Position numbers and translations under genes: made by a program. A stretch of 43,008 nucleotides of DNA from Treponema sp. J25. Lineage in GTDB: Bacteria > Spirochaetota > Spirochaetia > Treponematales > Breznakiellaceae. Below, in pieces: positions 1 through 42,724 of the stretch (position 1 is the stretch's first letter; every line of letters starts with the position of its first letter). The notes under the pieces were generated by a model. The model searched no databases, was not told the DNA's origin, and was given only the letters and a program-made list of their open reading frames with translations. The stretch covers positions 1-43,008 of the forward strand of contig NZ_PTQW01000024.1 in NCBI RefSeq assembly GCF_004343725.1, in the 5' to 3' direction.

Positions 1-87
1 CCTATTCTATCCCTATCCGTTGGATCGGGGTAGGCCCAGGGGGGTACCATGTCTCTTAACACACCATGAATTATCCAGAAAAAGAAC

Positions 88-30733: not shown

Positions 30734-31720
30734 ATGGTATCTCAGGCAGGGGAACAGTTGTTACAAAAAACAGAACTTTTTGTCCGACTCTTACCCGATG
30801 ATTTTCAGTGTGTGTGTACCCTTTCAGAGGAACTTACCCTTCCACCGGGGGTTACCCTTTTTTCTCCCGGTGAGACGGCAACCCGTTTTTATATCCTTAT
30901 TCGGGGAACCGTACGGGTGTTTAAACGAAAGGAGGGAAGAGAGGAAGAACTCGCCCTTTTTACGGCGGGGGATACGGTGGGAGATTTTGATTTTGCCCGT
31001 CAGGGGCGGTATGATGCCTTTGCAGAAACGGTAGAAGAGACGGATCTGATCTGTTTCCCCGCGGCCCGCTTTTCCCTTGCGGACATTACCCGTCAGTATC
31101 CTTCTACCATGGCTCGAGTTCTCCTTCAGTCTCTGGCGATGATTGCAAATCGAATTCGAACAACCCAGCGGCTTATCTCTCGAAATGTCCCCTGGGTTCA
31201 GGAGTTGCAACGACAGGCCTTTGAGGACCCCGGTACCGGTTTATGGAACCGGACCTTTTTTGAAGAAGAGCTCCCCCAGATGCTCAGTATGCCCGTGGGG
31301 CTTATCATGACAAAGCCGGACCGCTTTAAGGTGTTGGTGGACTCCTGTGGTCATAGTGCGGGGGACGAGGCGATGGTAAAAATTGCGGCCCTTCTGCAAT
31401 ACCTCGTGCGGAATTACGGTAAAGGCTGGGCCCTACGCCTTAAGAGCAATGAAACAGCCCTGGTTTTACCCGGTTGTTCCCCCACTATCCTTCGGAGTAT
31501 GGCGGAAGAGCTTTACCAGCGATTTCTCCAGATTCCTCCTGTTGGGTTGCCCGATGGTACTACCTTTACTTTTTCTGCCACCGTGGTGTATGGACTATGG
31601 GGGGAAGAAAAAAAAGATTCCCCTGCTCTGTGGAAGGAGTATGCCCAAACGGTGTATGATACACTTATGAACCGCTGGCAGGAGGGGGGCAATGGGGTCT
31701 ACCCGGCCTTTCCCTGTTAA
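30734..31720 (+). CDS. cNMP-binding protein with degenerate GGDEF domain
   Basis: A 328-residue cytoplasmic regulator. Residues about 15-125 form a cyclic-nucleotide-binding/Crp-like jelly roll (LPPGVTLFSPGETATRFYILIRGTVRVF, then AGDTVGDFDF). Residues about 160-325 follow a GGDEF fold (DPGTGLWNRTFFEEEL, GHSAGDEAMVKIAALLQYLV), but the catalytic GGDEF is KSNET (residues 237-241). It should therefore not make cyclic di-GMP; it may bind nucleotide or act on its active neighbour. ATG 30734 has no Shine-Dalgarno sequence; a TTG 21 bases downstream has AGGGGAA before it and is an alternative start. The gene pairs with the active cyclase 69 bases downstream. Confidence 0.82.
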   Translation: MVSQAGEQLLQKTELFVRLLPDDFQCVCTLSEELTLPPGVTLFSPGETATRFYILIRGTVRVFKRKEGREEELALFTAGDTVGDFDFARQGRYDAFAETVEETDLICFPAARFSLADITRQYPSTMARVLLQSLAMIANRIRTTQRLISRNVPWVQELQRQAFEDPGTGLWNRTFFEEELPQMLSMPVGLIMTKPDRFKVLVDSCGHSAGDEAMVKIAALLQYLVRNYGKGWALRLKSNETALVLPGCSPTILRSMAEELYQRFLQIPPVGLPDGTTFTFSATVVYGLWGEEKKDSPALWKEYAQTVYDTLMNRWQEGGNGVYPAFPC

Positions 31721-31789: not shown

Positions 31790-32836
31790 ATGGGTCTTGA
31801 TATTCCTCTCCCTTATCGGCGTCTTTTAGGATGCCCCCTTTTTTCTACCCTTACGGACCTAGAACTCAACGCGGTACTGGCCTTTCTTGAGCGCCGTCAT
31901 TTTAAAAAGGGAGAGGTAATTTTTACCGAAGGGGAAGAAGGAAAAGAGATGTTTATTGTCCTGGAAGGGAAAATTGCCGCTACCATCCAGCAGGGAGGAA
32001 AACATCCCCGGACGATCCATGAATTTGGCCCCGGCGAATTCTTTGGCGAGATGGCAGTCATAGAACAGGAACGGCGCTCTGCCACCTGTACCGCCCTGGA
32101 AGATTCGGATCTGTTGGTGCTGCAGGGAATCGATTTTTTTCGCCTCGTGTTTGAGCATCCCATGATATCTCTGAAGCTCCTTACTTCTATTGGAAAGGTG
32201 ATGAGCTGCTGGCTTGATGAGTCTTCCCGGTATTTAAATGACCTTGTCCGCTGGGGCGAAGCCGCTCGTCACCGGGCAATTACCGACCCTCTTACGGGAT
32301 TGTATAATCGCCGTTTCTTCGAAGAAAACCTTCGGAACCGCCTTTCCCATGGCCTTGGAGGCGGACGGTCTTTAGCGGTAGTGATGGTAGATTTAGACCG
32401 CATCCATGAGGTGAATGAACACTTTGGGTCCAGAATGGGCGATCTGGTTATTCAAGAGGTGGCCCGTTCTTTTACGCGGGTGCTCCGGGACACGGATGTG
32501 GCCGCCCGCCTTGCGGGGGATGAGTTTGCTATTCTTTTGCCCGATACGGATGCCAGGGGCGCCCGGGTGCTCGGAGAACGGCTGCGAAAAATGGTAGAAT
32601 CCTTAAAGATCCTTCTTCCAGCCCTGGAGGGGGCCCAGGACCCAATCCATCCGGAAAAAGCCAGCCCGCCAGCAGAGACCCCTCACAATTTTATACAGAT
32701 TCATACCTCCGTAGGGATAGCTCTGGCTCCCCGAGATGGTACTACTCTGGAGATGCTTCTGGAACGGGCAGACGGAGCCCTCAGGGATGCAAAAGAAACA
32801 GGTCGGAATAAAGTTGTCCTCGCAGGGGATCTTTAG
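31790..32836 (+). CDS. cNMP-binding diguanylate cyclase
   Basis: A 348-residue protein with an N-terminal cyclic-nucleotide-binding domain (KKGEVIFTEGEEGKEMFIVLEGKI, FFGEMAVIEQERRSATCTAL) and a C-terminal GGDEF domain. The latter has DPLTGLYNRRFFEENL, VVMVDLDRIHEVNEHFG and the catalytic loop AGDEF (242-246), and makes cyclic di-GMP from GTP. The inhibitory I-site RDTD (233-236) sits exactly five residues upstream, so product feedback is expected. A 24-residue extra stretch (about 278-302, EGAQDPIHPEKASPPAETPH) lies before the HTSVGIALAP strand. A ribosome site AGAGGAA precedes ATG 31790. It is probably co-transcribed with the degenerate paralogue upstream. Confidence 0.88.
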   Translation: MGLDIPLPYRRLLGCPLFSTLTDLELNAVLAFLERRHFKKGEVIFTEGEEGKEMFIVLEGKIAATIQQGGKHPRTIHEFGPGEFFGEMAVIEQERRSATCTALEDSDLLVLQGIDFFRLVFEHPMISLKLLTSIGKVMSCWLDESSRYLNDLVRWGEAARHRAITDPLTGLYNRRFFEENLRNRLSHGLGGGRSLAVVMVDLDRIHEVNEHFGSRMGDLVIQEVARSFTRVLRDTDVAARLAGDEFAILLPDTDARGARVLGERLRKMVESLKILLPALEGAQDPIHPEKASPPAETPHNFIQIHTSVGIALAPRDGTTLEMLLERADGALRDAKETGRNKVVLAGDL

Positions 32837-32900: not shown

Positions 32901-32929
32901 TTGACAGGTTATTCGTATATGTATAGAAT
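32901..32929 (+). promoter_or_regulatory. Promoter of the histidine operon
   Basis: Perfect TTGACA (32901-32906), 17-base spacer, TAGAAT (32924-32929). The +1 is expected at 32936-32937, the first base of the leader-peptide ATG. Confidence 0.75.
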
Positions 32930-32936
32930 CCTCTGT

Positions 32937-33008
32937 ATGAAACGGACCCTTATGATCAGGAACTGCCATCATCACCATCATCATTCTTTTTTCTCGGGAG
33001 ATGCATAG
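32937..33008 (+). CDS. hisL: Histidine operon leader peptide
   Basis: A 23-residue peptide, MKRTLMIRNC, then six consecutive histidines (codons 32967-32984), then SFFSGDA and a TAG stop at 33006-33008. A run of His codons in a short ORF between the promoter and a terminator upstream of hisG is the hallmark of ribosome-mediated attenuation. When His-tRNA is scarce the ribosome stalls on the run. No ribosome site precedes either ATG (32937 or the internal 32952), and the first ATG lies at the predicted transcription start, so a leaderless start is expected. Confidence 0.85.
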   Translation: MKRTLMIRNCHHHHHHSFFSGDA

Positions 33009-33079
33009 GGTCCTATCCGTCTGGGACGGTACCGGTGGTACTTATAAGCCGTGGACTCTATGGGTCTACGGCTTTTTTT
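33004..33079 (+). terminator. his attenuator: antiterminator and terminator
   Basis: Terminator: AGCCGTGGAC (33047-33056) pairs with GTCTACGGCT (33064-33073), ten pairs with one G-U, then seven T (33073-33079). Antiterminator: CATAGGGTCC (33004-33013) pairs with GGACTCTATG (33053-33062), ten pairs with one G-U, using the terminator's 5' arm. The antiterminator strand overlaps the leader stop codon, so a ribosome that finishes the peptide masks it (terminator forms). One stalled at the His codons leaves it free (read-through). Two small hairpins (CCGTC/GACGG and GTACC/GGTAC) lie between. Confidence 0.85.
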
Positions 33080-33172
33080 ATATCCCCGGGGGATGCGTAT
33101 AACGGGTTTCCGCCAGGGACAAGCTTCTTGTTAAGAAGTTAGGTTGTTGAAGAAAGAGGAAGGAGTTATAGA

Positions 33173-34027
33173 ATGGGAAAACTGCGGATTCTTATCCCTA
33201 AAGGAAGGATCTACGATAATGTGGCAAAGCTGTTTGCCGAAGCGGGCATACCGATAACCCTGTCTGACCGGACCTATCGTCCCTCCATTGGAGCGGATTG
33301 GCTTGATGGTAAGGTGATGAAGCCCCAGAATGTGGGGGAACTCCTCGAATTGGGGAGTCATGATGCGGGGTTTACGGGTATCGACTGGATTAAAGAGACC
33401 CAATCCGAGGTGGTGGAGGTAATGGACCTGGGCTTTGATAGGGTCCGTATCGTGGCGGCGGTTCCCCATGAGATGGATGACCGGGCGCTGAGGAACAAGA
33501 AAATCGTGGTTGCCACCGAGTATGTGCACCTTGCCGAGGAATGGCTGAATGCCCAGGGTTATCAATACCGTATACTCCGGACCTATGGGGCCACCGAAGT
33601 ATTCCCCCCCGACGATGCGGACATGATTGTGGACAATACCTCCTCTGGCCAAACCTTAAAGGATAATGGTCTTAAAATTATTGGTACCATCATGGAGTCC
33701 AGTACCCGTTTTGTGGCCTCTCCTAAGGCGATGGAAGATCCCGAAAAGCGCTCCCAGATTGAGGAATTGGCCATGTTGTTCCATGCGGTACTAGATGGCC
33801 GAGAAAAGGTGATGCTCGAGATGAATGTCACCAAACTTCGGTTTCCGGAACTGGTGGCAGGGCTTCCTGCCATGCGGAGTCCCACGATCGCTCCCCTTTA
33901 TGGAGATGATGGCTATGCGGTAAAGATTGCGGTGAACAAACAGGAGGTTCCCCTTTTAATTCCCAAACTAAAACGACTGGGGGCTACCGATATTGTAGAG
34001 TATGAACTACGAAAGGTGGTTCCTTAA
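33173..34027 (+). CDS. hisG: ATP phosphoribosyltransferase, long form
   Basis: First enzyme of histidine synthesis: ATP plus PRPP gives phosphoribosyl-ATP. It has 284 residues, the long (hexameric) form with a C-terminal ACT-like regulatory domain (KIAVNKQEVPLLIPKLKRLGATDIVEYEL) that binds histidine. The catalytic part shows LRILIPKGRI, DAGFTGIDWI, and the PRPP loop DMIVDNTSSGQTL. No hisZ is needed for this form. The ATG at 33173 has a good ribosome site (GAGGAAGGAG). First gene after the attenuator. A hairpin CTTCTT/AAGAAG lies between attenuator and hisG (about 33124-33138). Confidence 0.95.
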   Translation: MGKLRILIPKGRIYDNVAKLFAEAGIPITLSDRTYRPSIGADWLDGKVMKPQNVGELLELGSHDAGFTGIDWIKETQSEVVEVMDLGFDRVRIVAAVPHEMDDRALRNKKIVVATEYVHLAEEWLNAQGYQYRILRTYGATEVFPPDDADMIVDNTSSGQTLKDNGLKIIGTIMESSTRFVASPKAMEDPEKRSQIEELAMLFHAVLDGREKVMLEMNVTKLRFPELVAGLPAMRSPTIAPLYGDDGYAVKIAVNKQEVPLLIPKLKRLGATDIVEYELRKVVP

Positions 34028-34119
34028 TAGAAGAGAGCGGTCGCTTTCCTTCTGTCTGGCAGAGGAGTTTTTATTTTGATTCAAAAGGTAAGCTGGATTT
34101 TTATTAAAGGGAGGTGTCC

Positions 34120-34725
34120 ATGGCTCGAACGGCGGAATGGAATCGGAAAACCGGTGAAACCGATATTTTCATAAGCCTTAATCTGGATGGCGAAGGTAAG
34201 GCGGAAATCGATTGTCCCATTGGGTTTATGACCCACATGCTGACCACCTTTGCCCGGCATGGTTTGTTTGACCTCACGGTCCGTGCCCGGGGGGATCTTG
34301 AGGTGGATCAACATCACCTGGTGGAAGATCTGGGCATCGTTCTGGGAACGGTTTTTTCCCGGGCCCTGGGCGATAAAGGGGGCATCCGGCGGGTGGGCAG
34401 TTGTCTCTATCCCATGGATGAAACCCTGGCCCGGGCGGCGGTGGACCTCTGCGGTCGGCCCTACCTGGTGTTCGAAGGGGCCCTCAGCGGTATTCCCCTG
34501 GTATCGGGGGGCGCCTCCTTCCAGACCGATACGGTGACCGATTTCTGGCAGGGGTTCGTAAGCACCGCAGCTTGCGCACTCCACCTGGATATCCTCCGGG
34601 GCCGCAGTGATCACCACAAAATAGAGGCCCTGTTCAAAGCCGCCGCCCGGGCCCTGCGGGAAGCGGTTACGATTGATCCCCGGGAACAACATCGGATTCC
34701 CTCTACCAAGGGGGTCCTGGCATGA
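34120..34725 (+). CDS. hisB: Imidazoleglycerol-phosphate dehydratase
   Basis: A 201-residue monofunctional HisB that dehydrates imidazole-glycerol phosphate to imidazole-acetol phosphate. Metal-binding motifs DQHHLVEDLG and RSDHHKIEALFKA are intact, as is the N-terminal RKTGETDI. The usual FFDHML reads FMTHML here. There is no N-terminal phosphatase domain. The start at 34120 is after GGGAGGTG. It overlaps hisH by ATGA (34722-34725). Confidence 0.95.
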   Translation: MARTAEWNRKTGETDIFISLNLDGEGKAEIDCPIGFMTHMLTTFARHGLFDLTVRARGDLEVDQHHLVEDLGIVLGTVFSRALGDKGGIRRVGSCLYPMDETLARAAVDLCGRPYLVFEGALSGIPLVSGGASFQTDTVTDFWQGFVSTAACALHLDILRGRSDHHKIEALFKAAARALREAVTIDPREQHRIPSTKGVLA

Positions 34726-35378
34726 TTGGGGTATTGCAGTACGGGGCCGGAAACCTGGGGTCGGTGATGAATGCCCTGGCCCATCTGGGGTATGCCGCCC
34801 GTTTTGTCCGGGGCCCGGAGGAACTCCTCTCGGATCGTCCCCCCTTTACGGCCCTTATATTCCCCGGAGATGGCCACTTTGCGACCGCCATGGAAAGCCT
34901 GAATCAGTCTGGATATGCAGGGGCGATTCAGGAGTGGATTAGCCGGGATCGGCCCTTTCTTGGTATTTGTATTGGGCTTCAACTCCTTTTCGAAACAAGT
35001 GATGAAGCCCCTCCGGTGGATGGAAAAGAAGTCCGGGGCCTTTCGCTTATCCCGGGTAAGGTAAAACGCTTTCCGGGAAGAAAGGTTCCCCAGATTGGAT
35101 GGAATACGGCCCGGACCAATAAAGAAAGAGGGGGCCTTTCCCTGTTTCAGGGGCTCCCCTCGGAAGGGTATTACTACTTTATCCATTCCTACTATGTGGA
35201 GCCCCAGGACCCTTCGGTTATTGCTTCCTGGACAGACTATTATCTTCCTTATTGTTCTGCCATTGAGCGGGGTGCCCTTGCGGCTGTGCAATTCCATCCG
35301 GAAAAGTCGGGACCGTTGGGGCTTGCTCTGCTGGATGGCTGGTTACGTCACTATGCTCAAGGAGGGGGCCGGATATAA
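34722..35378 (+). CDS. hisH: Imidazole glycerol phosphate synthase, glutaminase subunit
   Basis: A 218-residue class I glutamine amidotransferase that delivers ammonia to HisF. The catalytic Cys is in FLGICIGLQLLFE, His and Glu in VQFHPEKSG. The oxyanion/YGAGN start (MIGVLQYGAGNLGSV) is usual. Translation is coupled to hisB by an ATGA overlap. Its stop codon overlaps another ATG (TAATG at 35376-35380), which starts a 28-codon ORF bridging to hisF. Confidence 0.95.
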   Translation: MIGVLQYGAGNLGSVMNALAHLGYAARFVRGPEELLSDRPPFTALIFPGDGHFATAMESLNQSGYAGAIQEWISRDRPFLGICIGLQLLFETSDEAPPVDGKEVRGLSLIPGKVKRFPGRKVPQIGWNTARTNKERGGLSLFQGLPSEGYYYFIHSYYVEPQDPSVIASWTDYYLPYCSAIERGALAAVQFHPEKSGPLGLALLDGWLRHYAQGGGRI

Positions 35379-35453
35379 TGCGAAGGACAGTGCTTGCTGT
35401 GTGTATGGGTCCCGGGAATGATTTCCCGGCGTTAAGAGGGAGGAGGCCCCTGG

Positions 35454-36257
35454 ATGCTTGCTAAACGGATTATCCCTTGCCTCGATGTGGATGATGGGCG
35501 GGTGGTGAAGGGCGTAAAGTTTGAAGGTATCCGCGATGCGGGGGACCCGGTGGAACTGGCGCGGCGCTATTACGAACAGGGAGCCGATGAACTCACCTTC
35601 CTGGATATTGGGGCTTCCTACAAAAGCCGGGATACCCTCATGGACGTGGTTCGCCAGGTAGCCCAGCAGGTATTTATTCCCCTCTGTGTAGGCGGTGGCA
35701 TTCGAAGCCTTGAGGATATGCATCGGGCCATGGAAGCGGGGGCCGATAAGGTATCGGTCTGTACCGCGGCGTTGCGGAATCCGGGGCTCCTTACCGAAAT
35801 GTCCCGGGCGTACGGAAGCCAGTGTGTGGTCCTTTCTATCGATGCAAAGCGGGTGGTCCTCCCCGGGAGCCAGCGTGAAGGGGAGCTTGCTTCTGATGAA
35901 CCCCGCTGGCACGCCTTTGCCAAGGGGGGCCGGGAAGATACGGGGATCGACGCCATTCAGTGGGCCATCGAAGCGGTAGAACGGGGGGCGGGAGAAATAC
36001 TCCTTAATTCTATCGATGCGGATGGAACGGGGGCAGGCTATGATCTGGAATTGACCCGCCGGATTGTGGAGGCCGTGCCGGTGCCGGTGATTGCCAGTGG
36101 GGGCGCAGGAACGCTGGATCAGATTGTGGCCGCCCTGGATCCCCAGGGGGGGAATGCCGACGCCGCCCTGGTGGCGAGCATGCTCCATTTTGGAAAGACC
36201 ACCATTCAGGACATAAAAACCTATGTGCAACAGAAGGGAGTAATCATTCGATGGTAG
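35454..36257 (+). CDS. hisF: Imidazole glycerol phosphate synthase, cyclase subunit
   Basis: A 267-residue (beta/alpha)8 barrel that closes the imidazole ring and releases AICAR. The catalytic Asp residues are in [14 protein letters not shown] and LSIDAKRV, and the phosphate-binding [18 protein letters not shown] and IASGGAG are present. After LSIDAKRV there is an extra stretch of about 14 residues ([15 protein letters not shown]), where relatives have a short loop. A strong ribosome site (GAGGGAGGAGG) precedes it. The 75 bases between hisH and hisF hold a perfect hairpin (35412-35429). It overlaps the next gene by 7 bases. Confidence 0.95.
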
Positions 36258-37534
36258 TAGCTTCAATTGATATTCAAGATGGAAAGGTTGTGCAACTGCG
36301 GCAGGGCCAGGAACTTGTCCTTGAGCGGGACGACCCGGAAGCCCTGGCGAGGGAATTCGATCGATATGGAGAAATCGCCCTGATCGATCTGGATGCGGCC
36401 ATGGGAAAGGGGGATAACCGCCCGCTTCTTAAAAAACTGCTTCCCCTCGGAGATTGCCGGGTCGGAGGTGGCATCCGAACGGTAGATCAGGCAAAGGAAC
36501 TCGTGAGCCTCGGCGCCAAAAAAATCATCGTTGGATCGGTGGCGTTCCGTATTTCCGAACGGAAGGGGGCCGGAAAGGAGGGGGGCGAATTTGGCGTAAA
36601 CCATCAATTTTTAGAACAGCTGGCAAAGAAGATTGGCCCTGAAAAGATTATCGTTGCGGTGGATGCCCGAAATGGAGAAATTGTGGTGGATGGATGGAAG
36701 ACCCCCACGGGGCTTCCCCTTGTGGAAACGGCCCAGGCGGTCCAGGCCTACGCGGGGGAACTCCTGTATACCTGTGTGGAACGGGAAGGCACCATGACGG
36801 GGATAGATCTGGAGGCCGTCCGGGCCCTGAAACAGGCCGTCCGGTGCGAGGTGACGGTCGCCGGAGGAGTCCAGAGCCTTGAAGAAATAACAGCCCTCTC
36901 CCGCCTGGGCTGTGACGTGCAACTCGGGATGGCCCTGTATACGGGAAAGGTGGGCCTGGCCGACGCCTTTGTGGCAAGCCTTGCCTGGGATAAGGGGGAG
37001 CTTTTGCCGGTGATAGCCCAGGCGCCGGACGGCCAGGTACTGATGCTCGGCTATGCAGACCGGGAAGCGGTGGCAGAAAGCTTTAAACGGAATAAGCTGT
37101 GTTTCCACAGCCGCAGTCGCAATACCCTGTGGATGAAGGGAGAAACCAGCGGCAACACCCTTGATCTTATCCGCATGCGGGCCGACTGCGATCGGGATGC
37201 CATTCTGGCCACCGTTGCCCCCGTGGGCCCTACCTGTCATCGGGGAAGCTGGTCCTGCTTCGGGGATCAACGGTACACCTGGGAACTGTTGCAGTCTATC
37301 GTTGAAGAACGGTTGCGTAATCCCCGGCCAGGCTCGTACACCGCCAGTCTAGATGATGAATTGGTGCGAGACAAGGTCCGTGAAGAGGCCGAAGAGGTCT
37401 GTACTGCCCAGAGTCATGAGGAAATTGTCTGGGAAGTGGCGGATCTCCTGTATTTTACCACGGTCTTGATGAGCCGTGCCGGCGTATCCGTGGCGGAGGT
37501 GCTGCGAGAGCTGGAAAGAAGGCACAAAAAATAA
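36251..37534 (+). CDS. hisA-hisIE: HisA-HisI-HisE fusion: isomerase, cyclohydrolase and pyrophosphatase in one chain
   Basis: A 427-residue polypeptide combining steps 2, 3 and 4 of histidine synthesis. Residues about 1-243 are a full HisA barrel: Asp in [12 protein letters not shown], Asp in [28 protein letters not shown]. An extra segment lies at about 101-118 ([15 protein letters not shown]). Residues about 247-345 are HisI, phosphoribosyl-AMP cyclohydrolase, with [30 protein letters not shown], the zinc/metal sites DCDRDAI and CHRGSWSCF. Residues about 346-427 are HisE, phosphoribosyl-ATP pyrophosphatase, with [14 protein letters not shown], then [13 protein letters not shown]. HisIE fusions are common; a HisA head is not usual. 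No stop or frameshift separates the parts. Confidence 0.92.
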
Positions 37535-37547
37535 GGAGTCCTGTTCT

Positions 37548-38681
37548 ATGGAAAGTCCCTACTGGAACGTCCGCTGTCGGAGTCTTGCTCCCTATGTTCC
37601 GGGAGAGCAGCCCCGGGAGCGACGGTACATCAAACTGAATACCAACGAGAACCCCTATCCTCCTTCTCCCCGGGTTCTGGAAGCGATTGGTAAGGCCGCT
37701 ACGGACACACTGAGACTCTATCCTGATCCCACCTGTCTTGCCCTGCGGGAAGCCATTGCCCGACGGTATGCCCTGCCAGGGCCTGAATGGGTGTTTGTCG
37801 GCAATGGATCGGACGAAATTCTTGCCTTCGCCTTTGGGGCCTTCTTTGGAGAACATCCCCTTGTTTCCGAGGAAGAGGGTCTTAAGATCCCTTCTGTGCC
37901 CACCCGGGCGCCGCTGCTTTTCCCTGATGTAACCTACAGTTTCTATCCGGTCTATGCGAATTTGTGGGAAATCTCCTACGAGACTATCCCCGTGGCAGAG
38001 GATTTTTCTATTCCCCTCGAGGCGTTTCAGAGACCAAACGGGGGCATCGTGCTGGCTAATCCCAACGCCCCCACGGGACGGGCGCTCCCTGCCCGGGATG
38101 TGAGGGCCCTGGCCCTGTTTCAGCAGCGACAGGGGGCGGTGCTTCTCGTGGATGAGGCCTATGTGGATTTTGGGGCCGAAAGTGTTGTTTCGGCGGTAGT
38201 GGAATTGGATAATCTCCTCGTGGTTCATACCCTGTCCAAATCCCGTTCCCTTGCGGGGCTGCGAGTGGGCTACGCGATGGGGAACCCGGGCCTTATCGAA
38301 GGCCTACGGCGAATCAGGGATTCCTTTAATTCCTATACGCTGGACCGGCTTGCCCTGGCAGGGGCCCAGGCGGCGATAGAGGATCAGGCCTACTATGACG
38401 ATACAAATAAGAAAATAATCGAGACCCGACGGTGGACTGTCCAGTCTTTAGAGGGTTTGGGCTATAGGGTGCTTCCTTCGGCGGCAAACTTTATCTTTGC
38501 CTGTCCCCCCAGCGGGAAGGCTTCTTCAGGAGCTGGGGCGGTGTATGCCTACCTTCGAGAGCGGGGTATCCTGGTTCGATATTGGGATGCTCCCCGCATT
38601 CGGGAATACCTGAGGATCACCATAGGTACGGACGAAGAAATGGCTGCCTTGGTTCGGGCCTTAAAAGAGTATACAGAGTAG
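37548..38681 (+). CDS. hisC: Histidinol-phosphate aminotransferase
   Basis: A 377-residue PLP aminotransferase, fold type I, that converts imidazole-acetol phosphate to histidinol phosphate. It has LNTNENPYPPSPRVLEAI, the VFVGNGSDEILAF motif, IVLANPNAPTGRAL, LLVDEAYVDFG, and the PLP Lys in HTLSKSRSLAGLRVGYAMG. Residues about 107-124 (EEEGLKIPSVPTRAPL) are longer than usual before FPDVTYSFYPVYA. ATG 37548 follows AAGGAG, which overlaps the previous stop codon. Confidence 0.93.
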   Translation: MESPYWNVRCRSLAPYVPGEQPRERRYIKLNTNENPYPPSPRVLEAIGKAATDTLRLYPDPTCLALREAIARRYALPGPEWVFVGNGSDEILAFAFGAFFGEHPLVSEEEGLKIPSVPTRAPLLFPDVTYSFYPVYANLWEISYETIPVAEDFSIPLEAFQRPNGGIVLANPNAPTGRALPARDVRALALFQQRQGAVLLVDEAYVDFGAESVVSAVVELDNLLVVHTLSKSRSLAGLRVGYAMGNPGLIEGLRRIRDSFNSYTLDRLALAGAQAAIEDQAYYDDTNKKIIETRRWTVQSLEGLGYRVLPSAANFIFACPPSGKASSGAGAVYAYLRERGILVRYWDAPRIREYLRITIGTDEEMAALVRALKEYTE

Positions 38682-38699
38682 GGGAGGCATAGAAATCCG

Positions 38700-40097
38700 A
38701 TGAGGTGTATCTGTGGCCTTGAAGAATTTCGTCAGTACTGGCGGGTAGAACAGGAGGGAGATTTTTCCCTACTTGATCCAGGGGTAGACGAAAGGGTTAT
38801 CAAAATTATTGAAGATGTATGGGTGAATGGGGAAGAGGCCCTAAAGCGATATACCGCTCAGTTTGATGGCCTTGTGCCCTCTTCATGGCAGGTTCCTGCC
38901 GGGGAACTGCAGGATGCCCTTGCCAAACTTCAACAGGAAGAGCCGGATCTGTTTGAAAGTCTTTCCTTTGCGGCGGCCCAGATCCGGGCCTTTGCGGAAT
39001 ATCAGCGCTCCCAGTTCCAGAATTTTGAAGTTCCCCTCGGCGAAGGCCTTATGGCGGGCCAGCGGGTGATTCCCGTCCGTCGGGCGGCGGTGTATGTGCC
39101 CGCGGGCCGCTTTCCCCTGGTATCGACGGTGCTGATGGGGGTTATCCCGGCGGTGGTGGCGGGGGTCCCTGAGATTTTTGTGGTTTCTCCTCCCCGCAAG
39201 GCTGGACTGCCAGACCGCCGTATTCTGGCCGCCGCCGCCCTGGCCGGGGCTCAGGGGGTGTATGCCATGGGCGGAGCCCAGGCTATTGCGGCCCTTGCCC
39301 GGGGAACGGAGCATATCCCGCGGATGGATCTCATCGTAGGACCGGGGAATAAGTATGTGGCGGCGGCAAAACGCCTGCTGTATGGGCGGGTGGGCATTGA
39401 TTTTGTGGCGGGCCCCACGGATGTGCTGATTATCTGGGATGGAACAGAAGCAGCTGACACAAAAAAAGGGGAAGGCCCGGTGGGGACTCCTCCGGGAACC
39501 CTTCGCCAGGGGGAGTCTTTTAAAGGGGGGAACCCTTCATCCATCTCTCTTATTGTGGCGGATCTCCTGGCCCAGGCAGAACATGATCCCGATGCCCGGG
39601 CCCGACTGCTGGTTCCTTCTCAGAAACTGGCGGAAGAGATATCCCAGGCGTTAGAAGAGCATGTTCAGACCCTCCCGACGGCCGATATTGCCCGGGCTTC
39701 CTTACAGAAGGGGGGGCTCATGGTGATCTATTCCAGTAAAGAGGAAGCCCAGGAGATAGCCAACCTGATTGCCCCTGAACACCTGGAACTCCATGTGTCC
39801 GATCCTGAGTCCTGGGTTGAAGGGCTGTATAACTACGGATCCCTTTTCATTGGGCCCATGACCGCAGAGGTGTTGGGGGACTATTCGGCGGGGATAAACC
39901 ACACCCTTCCGACCGGAGGGACCGCCCGCTTTACCGGCGGGCTTTCGGTTCGGCACTTCCTGAAAACCCAAACGACCCTCCGATGCACCGAAGGAAAGGC
40001 GGTTTCTCGAGCCTATGAAGCGGCCGAACGGATTGCCCGGGCGGAAGGCCTGGAGGCCCACCGGCGAAGCGCTGCCCTGCGGATAAAGGCAGAATAA
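38700..40097 (+). CDS. hisD: Histidinol dehydrogenase
   Basis: Catalyses the last two oxidations, histidinol to histidine, with NAD+ and zinc. It has 465 residues. Conserved features: RRAAVYVPAGRFPLVSTVLMGVIPA, GGAQAIAALARGTEHIP, the VGPGNKYVAAAK motif, DFVAGPTDVLII, LLAQAEHDPDA, and INHTLPTGGTARFTGGLSV. About 33 residues (about 249-281, EAADTKKGEGPVGTPPGTLR onward) are inserted between DVLIIWDG and SISLIVADLLAQAEH. That is a loop near the zinc site, where relatives have only a few residues. Last gene of the operon; no HolPase gene accompanies it. It is convergent with thiC with a 24-base gap and no clear terminator. Confidence 0.94.
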   Translation: MRCICGLEEFRQYWRVEQEGDFSLLDPGVDERVIKIIEDVWVNGEEALKRYTAQFDGLVPSSWQVPAGELQDALAKLQQEEPDLFESLSFAAAQIRAFAEYQRSQFQNFEVPLGEGLMAGQRVIPVRRAAVYVPAGRFPLVSTVLMGVIPAVVAGVPEIFVVSPPRKAGLPDRRILAAAALAGAQGVYAMGGAQAIAALARGTEHIPRMDLIVGPGNKYVAAAKRLLYGRVGIDFVAGPTDVLIIWDGTEAADTKKGEGPVGTPPGTLRQGESFKGGNPSSISLIVADLLAQAEHDPDARARLLVPSQKLAEEISQALEEHVQTLPTADIARASLQKGGLMVIYSSKEEAQEIANLIAPEHLELHVSDPESWVEGLYNYGSLFIGPMTAEVLGDYSAGINHTLPTGGTARFTGGLSVRHFLKTQTTLRCTEGKAVSRAYEAAERIARAEGLEAHRRSAALRIKAE

Positions 40098-40121: not shown

Positions 40122-41426
40122 TTAGCTCCCCAAAGACTCCCCTATCCGTATCGCACAAAAGGGACCACACATAGAACAGCCCTCTTCTTGATAGGGCCGT
40201 TCCTCATAATATTTGCGGGCCCTTTCAGGGTGGATGGCTGTAGCAAACATTTCTTCCCAGTCGAGATGGGACCGGGCAAGGGCCATTCGGTTTTCTAGAG
40301 CAAGGGCTCGAGGGTGATGCCTGGCCACATCAGCAATGATGGCGGCGATGCGGGCTGCTATAACCCCCTCCTGGACTTCGGCTACACCAGGGAGAGACAC
40401 ATGTTCTGAAGGAGTGACATAGCAAAGAAAGTCGGCCCCATAAAAACCTGCGAGGGCACCCCCTACGGCAGCAACGATATGATCGTATCCCACCCCTCTA
40501 TCGGTAGGAAGAGGACCCAAGACAAAAATGGGGGCTCCCTTTCCTATCTTTTTCATGACTCTTATATTGGTTTCTATTTCATCAAGGGGAACATGGCCCG
40601 GTCCTTCAATCATAACCTGGACACCATGGGCCCAGGCCTGTTCAACAAGGGGCTGCAGTTCAAACAGTTCTTCAAGCTGGGCCTGATCGGTGGCGTCGTG
40701 AATTGCCCCTGGCCGCAGGCCATCTCCTAAACTTAGGGTCACATCGTATTCTTTGGCGATATCAAGAATCTCATCAAAATGACGATAAAAGGGATTCTCC
40801 TGTTTGTTTTGCCGCATCCAGCCAGCGAGAATGGCACCCCCGCGACTGACCATCGGGATATATCTACGATACCGATGATGGGTAGCCCCCTGGCGCAACC
40901 CACCGAGGCAATCCAATACCCGCCGGGTTATTCCCGCATGGATGGTCATAAAATCAATCCCATCCTCTGCGTGGGTCCGAACCATCTCGATAAAATCTTC
41001 TTCCGAAAAATCGATAACCCGTTTCCCTTGACTGTAGGCCTTAACCGCCGCATCATAGATGGGAACAGAACCTACAGGAACGGGACTGCGCTCCACGATA
41101 CGCTGGCGCAGTCCCTGTAAGTCCCCCCAGGTAGAAAGCACCATAAGGGCATCCGTCCCGGCTTCGATGGCTACTTCCATCTTTGCAAGTTCCTCTTCCA
41201 GGGAAGAATACCCCCGGGAGGTTCCGATGTTGGCGTTCACCTTTACGGAGAAACCTTCGCCAATTACCATTGGCCGCTCCAGAGTATGCCGCTTGTTTTT
41301 AGGGAGCACGGCCTGTCCCGTTTGAAGTTTTTTCAGAACAAGGGCAGGAGGAACCTGTTCTGTGGCCGCACAGATTTCCATTTCTTTTGTAAGAATCGAT
41401 TTACAGGCCGATTCAAGCTGGGTCAC
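40122..41426 (-). CDS. thiC: Phosphomethylpyrimidine synthase ThiC
   Basis: A radical-SAM enzyme of 434 residues that converts 5-aminoimidazole ribotide to the thiamin pyrimidine HMP-P. It has [56 protein letters not shown], and the C-terminal [4Fe-4S] motif CSMCGPFCA (CX2CX4C). It lacks the N-terminal extension of long ThiC proteins, as in anaerobes and archaea. The start overlaps thi4 by 14 bases, so the two are translationally linked. Under the TPP riboswitch at 42508-42602. Confidence 0.95.
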
Positions 41427-42273
41427 GGGAACCTCCTTTCCCTAAGGCTGCCTCAAGCATTTTGGCAGCTTTTAATCCCGAGAGAATCATTCCACCAAAA
41501 ATAGGGCCCATCCGGGGGGCGCCGCCCACATTTACCGCGGCCATCCCCGTCACATAAAGACCGGGATAGACCTCGCCGGTGTGTTCTACCACAAGCCGTT
41601 CTCCATTTTCCGCGTCCATAGGCATCTCTTGAGGAATGAGGGCCCGAAACGCTGCCGATGTTCTATCCTCGTTATCCTGTTTCTGGAGTGGATGAATGTC
41701 CCCTGTGGGGGAACCGACAGGAATATTTCGTTTTAAAAGAAGGCGTACTAAATGGGCTGGGTGCCCCGTGGCATCTACCACATAGGAGGCCACGATACTC
41801 AGAGGATCCACCTGCATCTTTTCCTTTATTACCGGAAGCCAGTTAATCACCACCCCGTTGATCCGCTGTTCATACATCACCAGGTCTTCTACAAACACGT
41901 TGTTTAAAATGACAGCCCCTGCCTTAGTGGCCTGATAAATAAGGGCTGAGGCAAAATGAACCGAATCCACCACCAGGAAGTCTTCTTTCTTTGTGTACCG
42001 GATATCCTGTTCCTCCAGAAAGGACTGTAATTCTTCTTCCAGAACCAGTTCATTAAACATCATACCTCCGCCCCACACGCCACCACCGGGCTCATTTTTT
42101 GCCTCGAGAACAAGAACCTTCCATCCTTTTTTTGCAAGAACCCCTGCCAGGCTAAGGGCACTGGGGCCTGCCCCTGCAATAGCCACATCTACTTCTAACA
42201 CCTTTTTCAATTTTGCCAGATACTCTTCCACAATGAGTGCACTGATGAGGGGGTCTTTCCTTTTTGTAGACAT
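41413..42273 (-). CDS. thi4: Thi4-type thiazole synthase, sulfide-dependent (archaeal type)
   Basis: A 286-residue flavin-fold (Rossmann) enzyme that makes the ADP-thiazole precursor of thiamin from NAD+, glycine and sulfur. It shows [51 protein letters not shown], and [20 protein letters not shown]. The yeast and plant enzymes donate sulfur from an active-site Cys and act once. Here the whole protein contains no cysteine, so it must use external sulfide and turn over, as known for methanogen Thi4 with Fe2+. This fits an anaerobe. ATG 42273 is preceded by TGGAGG. First gene of the thi4-thiC operon. Confidence 0.9.
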
Positions 42274-42460: not shown

Positions 42461-42507
42461 GTATCATCACAAAAAAGCACCAAAAGTGGTCTTGTTTTTG
42501 CACCTAT

Positions 42508-42602
42508 CCCGTATCCCTCCGCCGGTATTATCCGGTTCAGGTTCAAAGGGTCGAAGGTTTCCACCTTCCTCTCAGCTTTAGGATAAAAGCTCCCCTTCGA
42601 GA
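42508..42602 (-). ncRNA. TPP riboswitch (thi-box)
   Basis: On the minus strand the conserved thi-box is clear: AAGGGGAGC, GCTGAGAGG, the variable stem AAGGTGGAAACCTT, then ACCCTTTGAACCTGA, CCGGATAATACCGG and CGGAGGGA. It senses thiamin pyrophosphate and controls thi4-thiC. Its 3' core CGGAGGGAT (42513-42521) is identical to the 3' arm of the downstream terminator. It can therefore pair with the terminator's 5' arm when TPP is absent (antitermination) and is held in the aptamer when TPP is bound (termination). The outer P1 helix is not resolved by eye. The upstream promoter is unclear. Confidence 0.92.
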
Positions 42603-42724
42603 TGATGTGTTCTATGTACACGGATCAACAAAAAAAATCAAGAGGTGAGAGAGAACGAGAGATAGTAACTTGGCAAAGAATTGTTAAATTTGAGATCTGA
42701 AGGGAGATGGTCCCCCCCCAAGGA

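Follow-up and report, generated by a model that had tools for sequence, protein, structure and literature searches.

A probable ribosome-mediated histidine attenuator ahead of the his operon in Treponema sp. J25 and related spirochaetes

According to a survey published in 2010, leader-peptide systems were until then known only from Proteobacteria and Actinobacteria; that survey added the bacilli (PMC2965389). A 2022 survey of his regulation lists RNA attenuators for Proteobacteria and reports new examples from three lineages of Firmicutes, the Bacillus cereus group, Peptostreptococcaceae and Erysipelotrichales (PMC9413887). Ribosome-mediated attenuation on a leaderless mRNA is described for trpL of Sinorhizobium meliloti, whose leader transcript begins at the AUG of the leader ORF (PMC7298713). 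In the open-access literature no description of a spirochaete his attenuator was found; an earlier mention in older surveys is possible. Here we describe an element of Treponema sp. J25, located in a stretch of 43,008 nucleotides (contig NZ_PTQW01000024.1, hereafter the window), which very probably controls the his operon by ribosome-mediated transcription attenuation.

Architecture of the leader region and of the operon behind it

The earlier note on this DNA had proposed a TTGACA-17-TAGAAT promoter, a 23-residue leader with six consecutive His codons and a 10-bp antiterminator helix (33004–33013 with 33053–33062), and a letter-by-letter check confirmed all three (Table 1). The promoter matches the consensus at 11 of 12 positions, and one of the ten base pairs of the antiterminator helix, P1, is a G-U pair. 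The terminator shares an arm with the antiterminator as claimed, segment 3 overlapping its 5' arm; its stem had been given as 10 bp and is in fact 13 bp long. The attenuator reading of that scheme stands, but three things were absent from it: a protector strand, the predicted leaderless start, and the branching of the antiterminator. The protector strand corresponds to leader codons 3–6 and is complementary to 33004–33013, so that the full 1:2 / 2:3 / 3:4 logic is present. In the window the antiterminator is more than one helix, P1 being joined by hairpins P2 and P3, the latter of which holds the base of the terminator's 5' arm. The overlap of the stop codon with the antiterminator strand, also claimed, is real in the window and in a few close relatives (L003, L032/33/41/85 and L111), but does not hold for most relatives, in which segment 2 lies within the ORF, some 10–35 nt upstream of the leader stop. 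The locus thus combines the classic features of an attenuator: a His-rich leader ORF, a position between promoter and first gene, an intrinsic terminator, an antiterminator exclusive with it and a 1:2 protector helix.

Table 1. Features of the his attenuator and operon in the window
Feature	Position	Strand	Basis and remarks
-35 box, TTGACA	32901–32906	+	sequence; TTGAC kept at the same place in relatives
-10 box, TAGAAT	32924–32929	+	spacer to -35 box 17 nt
Leader peptide ORF, MKRTLMIRNCHHHHHHSFFSGDA	32937–33008	+	ATG 32937, TAG 33006–33008; 23 residues; predicted leaderless
Segment 1, protector, GGACCC-t-TATG	32944–32954	+	pairs with segment 2; duplex -15.9 kcal/mol; co-variation in 36 relatives
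Six consecutive His codons, CAT CAT CAC CAT CAT CAT	32967–32984	+	sequence; His-specific enrichment before hisG
Segment 2, CATAGGGTCC, 5' strand of helix P1	33004–33013	+	overlaps leader stop; pairing and co-variation
Antiterminator hairpin P2, CCGTC-TGG-GACGG	33017–33029	+	stem 33017–33021/33025–33029; MFE of 2-3 region; compensatory changes in relatives
Antiterminator helix P3	33033–33051	+	33033–33036 with 33048–33051; folding and alignment of relatives
Intrinsic terminator	33046–33079	+	13-bp stem 33046–33058/33062–33074, 3-nt loop, T-run 33073–33079
Segment 3, GGACTCTATG, 3' strand of P1	33053–33062	+	overlaps terminator 5' arm; pairing and co-variation
Shine-Dalgarno-like site of hisG, AAGGAG	33160–33165	+	sequence
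hisG, ATP phosphoribosyltransferase, long form with C-terminal regulatory domain	33173–34027	+	NCBIfam TIGR00070 and TIGR03455 over cut-off
hisB, hisH, hisF, hisA::hisIE fusion, hisC, hisD	34114–40097	+	profile matches

As the earlier note had it, the attenuator precedes hisG, which proves to be the first gene of a complete his operon lying directly behind it, hisG-hisB-hisH-hisF-hisA::hisIE-hisC-hisD. HisG of the window shares 84% identity with the HisG of a Gracilinema caldarium MAG, as befits a Breznakiellaceae-like spirochaete. hisA and hisIE are fused in frame in one ORF of 427 aa (36251–37534, + strand), an unusual his gene with three functions. The match of HisD (38700–40097, + strand) to TIGR00069 falls into two parts, apparently because of an insertion that follows residue 250 or so.

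Elsewhere in the window, two similar adjacent proteins are encoded upstream of the his operon (30734–31720 and 31790–32836, + strand). The N-terminal part of both resembles, by eye, a cyclic-nucleotide-binding domain, and a GGDEF domain was confirmed for the second. A TPP riboswitch was detected at 42496–42606 on the minus strand (75.4 bits, over cut-off); the ORFs downstream of it, 41413–42273 and 40122–41426, resemble by eye a Thi4-type protein and ThiC.

Conservation in relatives

Upstream regions of hisG were gathered from genomes of the family and order of the window and from GTDB contigs with a named source, giving 155 non-redundant regions, and a His leader was defined as a short ATG-initiated ORF in which four or more of eight residues are His. 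Such a leader was present in 51 of the 155 regions, against 0.3 in dinucleotide shuffles and 0 on the antisense strand; the next amino acid by the same run criterion was Leu, with 14. His leaders stand before hisG in four families of the order (f1, f3, f4 and f5) and also in a further family of the class, f13, whose HisG looks different (L221, L222, L225, L228 and L229). No convincing His leader was seen before hisG in the regions sampled from the other families of the class and phylum, among them what we presume to be Leptospira- and Brachyspira-type groups. Outside the spirochaetes, His leaders were found before hisG in Melainabacteria/Obscuribacterales, Aminicenantes, Fermentibacterales and further bacterial contigs (L073, L075, L076, L077, L070, L078 and L066–L068), with a terminator in most.

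Searches of Rfam returned no attenuator family above cut-off at the locus: in a 301-base search RF00514 (His_leader) scored 26.0 bits against a gathering threshold of 49 (E 0.022), and in 12 relatives it gave no match up to E 0.1. The T-box covariance model gave no match at the locus. Because the His_leader score is below the cut-off, the element is filed as a histidine attenuator by its anatomy and conservation and not by RF00514. These searches also bear on the proposal that a protein or ligand acts on the leader RNA or promoter, in the manner of a HisR-type repressor, a T-box or a riboswitch, the His run being incidental. HisR and T-boxes do regulate his genes in other bacteria (PMC9413887), but at this locus neither a T-box nor any other Rfam family reached the cut-off and the His run is specific both to the sense strand and to histidine, which makes such control highly improbable here.

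A covariance model was built from the antiterminator region only, leaving the His codons out. It matched 45 of 200 family genomes, exactly once in each, and a first set of eight held-out new loci all carried a His-rich leader with hisG directly downstream. Among the weaker or additional new matches a His-rich leader ORF was present in nearly all, the exceptions being L292 and L293. In the genome of the window the sole match was the site described here, no further copy of the element being detected by the model up to E 5. The element is missing from more than half of the family genomes searched, in part owing to incomplete assemblies and in part because hisG follows another gene in them.

The sequences of the Breznakiellaceae were folded as RNAs ending with the last base of the terminator 5' arm, and a three-way junction was common to most of them. 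In relatives P1 pairs segment 2 (RRRTCC) with GGAYTC of the terminator arm, and P3 pairs (A)CGG(T) with (A)CCGT at the base of that arm. P2 is in many of them a local hairpin holding the leader stop codon in its loop (GCGCC-GTATA-GGCGT, GCGTC-TTATA-GACGT). The terminator core, CCGTGG...CCACGG-T, is kept as well. On a MAFFT alignment of 21 sequences, 86% of the cells of the junction were paired and two-sided changes occurred at 8 of 17 pairs. The covariation score of the junction was 0.289, against 0.239 ± 0.016 for shuffled alignments (0/500) and at most 0.162 for slid versions. The signal was strongest in P1 and P2; P3 adds little evidence of its own because it is almost invariant.

Both alternative pairings of segment 2 co-vary. 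For 2:3, true partners scored 570 against 508 ± 12 for permuted partners (0/5000; 36 leaders), and for 1:2 they scored 530 against 490 ± 12 (p 0.0012; the 36 leaders of the Breznakiellaceae set), whereas segment 1 matched against arm 3 as a control gave no co-variation signal in the 36 leaders (p 0.68); these statistics are supporting rather than absolute, because the sequences are related and segment 2, anchored by conserved flanks, had first been located partly by complementarity, which favours pairing. Over 58 leaders combined, the energy gain of the antiterminator exceeded that of shuffles (Fisher 6e-17, a value inflated by the relatives not being independent), and over the wider leader set the 1:2 pairing was marginal (Fisher 0.05, by duplex energy with a long segment 2, an insensitive measure). 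The earlier note had proposed comparing the hisG upstream regions of relatives and its reading was to be abandoned if close relatives had lost the His run and the covariation of the stems. The comparison revealed no such loss: the His run recurs and both alternative helices co-vary.

The comparison of leaders also speaks to the function of the peptide. Runs of 3–6 His could bind metal, transcripts stopping at the terminator would be short peptide mRNAs, and peTrpL, the leader peptide of S. meliloti, is trans-acting (PMC7298713), so the His-rich peptide might itself be the product, for example a metal-binding micropeptide, with the hairpins only ending its transcript. The peptides diverge strongly outside the His run while the RNA pairings are retained, and the element is single-copy and tied to hisG; we regard this explanation as very unlikely, although the peptide could have a function in addition to attenuation.

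Some relatives depart from the common pattern. In L004 and L289 the stems are kept, the His run is replaced by HHQ or HHQHQ and the leader stop is lost, and these attenuators are apparently decaying. Such cases lend the idea of a chance assembly or decaying remnant what force it has; in the window, however, no part is damaged, and chance falls far short of explaining either the enrichment or the co-variation. Chance is refuted for the family by the His-leader enrichment, the one match per genome and the His leaders at the held-out loci, and this last alternative is hardly credible. In L098 an HHHH leader ORF runs without a stop before the terminator to the start of hisG, which reflects either an assembly error or a different logic.

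Insertions between terminator and hisG were also noted. In L294 (G016) a group II intron with a reverse transcriptase ORF (about 690–2550) lies just behind the terminator of the his attenuator, with hisG about 2 kb further on. Group IIC introns insert after terminators, and the intron may therefore have targeted the attenuator. In L032, L033 and L041, from three Gracilinema-type species, about 300 nt with long inverted repeats separate the attenuator terminator from hisG; no Rfam match was obtained for the two stretches of this kind that were tested (L083 and L084).

Together, the His run, the single-copy site before hisG in dozens of genomes and the co-variation of both alternative helices support the histidine attenuator proposed in the earlier note, and only such an attenuator explains all of them.

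Start of the leader mRNA and proposed mechanism

The leader ATG lies 7 nt past the end of the -10 box, which leaves practically no 5' UTR, and no Shine-Dalgarno site for the leader ORF fits within these 7 nt. Transcription usually begins about 7 nt after the -10 box, so the 5' end of the leader mRNA is expected at the AUG or within about 2 nt of it. The same geometry recurs in relatives: the best sigma-70-type promoter ends 5–10 nt ahead of the leader start in 45 of 54 cases, divergent families included, where about 2.4 would be expected by chance, and the distance peaks at 6 and 7 nt. By inspection, most of the distant f13 leaders have the same promoter spacing. From this promoter geometry the leader mRNA is predicted to be leaderless. 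The pattern TTGACA-16..18-TANNNT-5..8-ATG occurs at 20 places in the genome of the window (loci L166–L185), whereas its reversed form occurs at 4. Long ORFs begin at most of the 20 ATGs, so that leaderless genes seem to be common in this spirochaete. Among these 20 places the his leader is the sole leader with an amino-acid run, and no other leaderless attenuator was found in this genome by the pattern.

The same attenuator might instead be transcribed from further upstream, with the leader ORF initiated internally. Only some 100 nt separate the end of the upstream GGDEF gene from the leader, so transcripts reading through from there might extend further in the 5' direction. The near-consensus promoter at nearly fixed spacing, the lack of room for a Shine-Dalgarno site and the excess of promoter-ATG places nevertheless argue for the leaderless start, and we consider an upstream start unlikely, though it deserves to be kept in mind.

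The effect of a translating ribosome was modelled by folding the RNA at equilibrium while a ribosome occupied 31 nt of it. With arm 3 newly emerged, the probability of the 2:3 pairing was 0.53 without a ribosome, 0.99 with a ribosome initiating or at His1 and 0.98 at His2; it fell to 0.04 at His4, 0.03 at His6 and 0.00 at the stop codon. Once fully transcribed, the terminator wins at equilibrium in every ribosome state (P about 0.97), and the choice must therefore be kinetic and made during transcription. That ribosome position alone decides, as the earlier note put it, is thus an inference. In the model a ribosome at His4 or His6 lets the protector re-pair. Control is therefore predicted to lie with the first two His codons, except if a ribosome in the loop sterically hinders the re-pairing of segment 1.

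On this attenuator, with its predicted leaderless start, the following sequence of events may be envisaged. RNA polymerase would begin at the leader AUG or beside it, producing a practically leaderless transcript on which a ribosome loads; because the transcript starts there, the loading ribosome would at once cover the protector strand in codons 3–6. If charged tRNA-His is scarce, the ribosome would pause at the first His codons, which would keep the protector covered and leave segment 2 available for pairing. Together with segment 3 and the two small hairpins it would then form the branched antiterminator, which holds the terminator 5' arm and would let the polymerase read into hisG. If histidine is plentiful, the ribosome would reach the stop codon inside segment 2 and mask that segment, the 3:4 terminator would form and transcription would end near 33079. 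Without translation of the leader, the protector would pair with segment 2, again leading to termination.

Comparison with known attenuators

Judged from sequence, histidine attenuation is present across several Spirochaetota families, an extension of a distribution for which the literature found records only Proteobacteria and a few Firmicutes. The mechanism looks like ordinary ribosome-mediated attenuation; what look undescribed in the literature searched are the spirochaete lineage and the leaderless initiation. The evidence leaves it evenly balanced whether histidine attenuation is an old device of the whole class Spirochaetia, with leaderless leader mRNAs, an initiating ribosome masking the protector, a branched antiterminator and a stop codon often placed in a hairpin loop. 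If it is, then together with the Melainabacteria-type, Aminicenantes and Fermentibacterales leaders, his attenuation would be far wider than recorded. The leaderless promoter spacing is absent from those non-spirochaete leaders that have enough upstream sequence (27–29 nt in L066–L068). The dozens of diverged attenuators offer a natural set for how such a switch evolves, decays and gets lost, and a leaderless start would change, in kinetic terms, how the first ribosome has to be coupled to RNA polymerase.

Like enterobacterial hisL (RF00514), the element lies directly before hisG and has a short leader ORF containing a His run, and its protector, antiterminator and terminator helices are mutually exclusive. 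Textbook hisL has both a 5' UTR and a Shine-Dalgarno site before its leader, whereas the leader described here is predicted to have neither, and its antiterminator is one branched structure including P2 and P3. A histidine T-box in other bacteria likewise senses tRNA-His charging before his genes, as proposed here; unlike a T-box, which found no match, the spirochaete element would sense it through a translated ORF. The Firmicutes His leaders of the 2022 survey are similar in having 3–5 His codons in a row and a terminator and antiterminator before his genes, and they too are missed by RF00514; they belong to another phylum, and the accessible text of that survey mentions neither a leaderless start nor a branched antiterminator for them (PMC9413887). 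The trpL attenuator of S. meliloti responds to tryptophan instead of histidine and belongs to the Alphaproteobacteria, but it shares with the spirochaete leader the feature predicted here from promoter geometry, attenuation on a leaderless mRNA.
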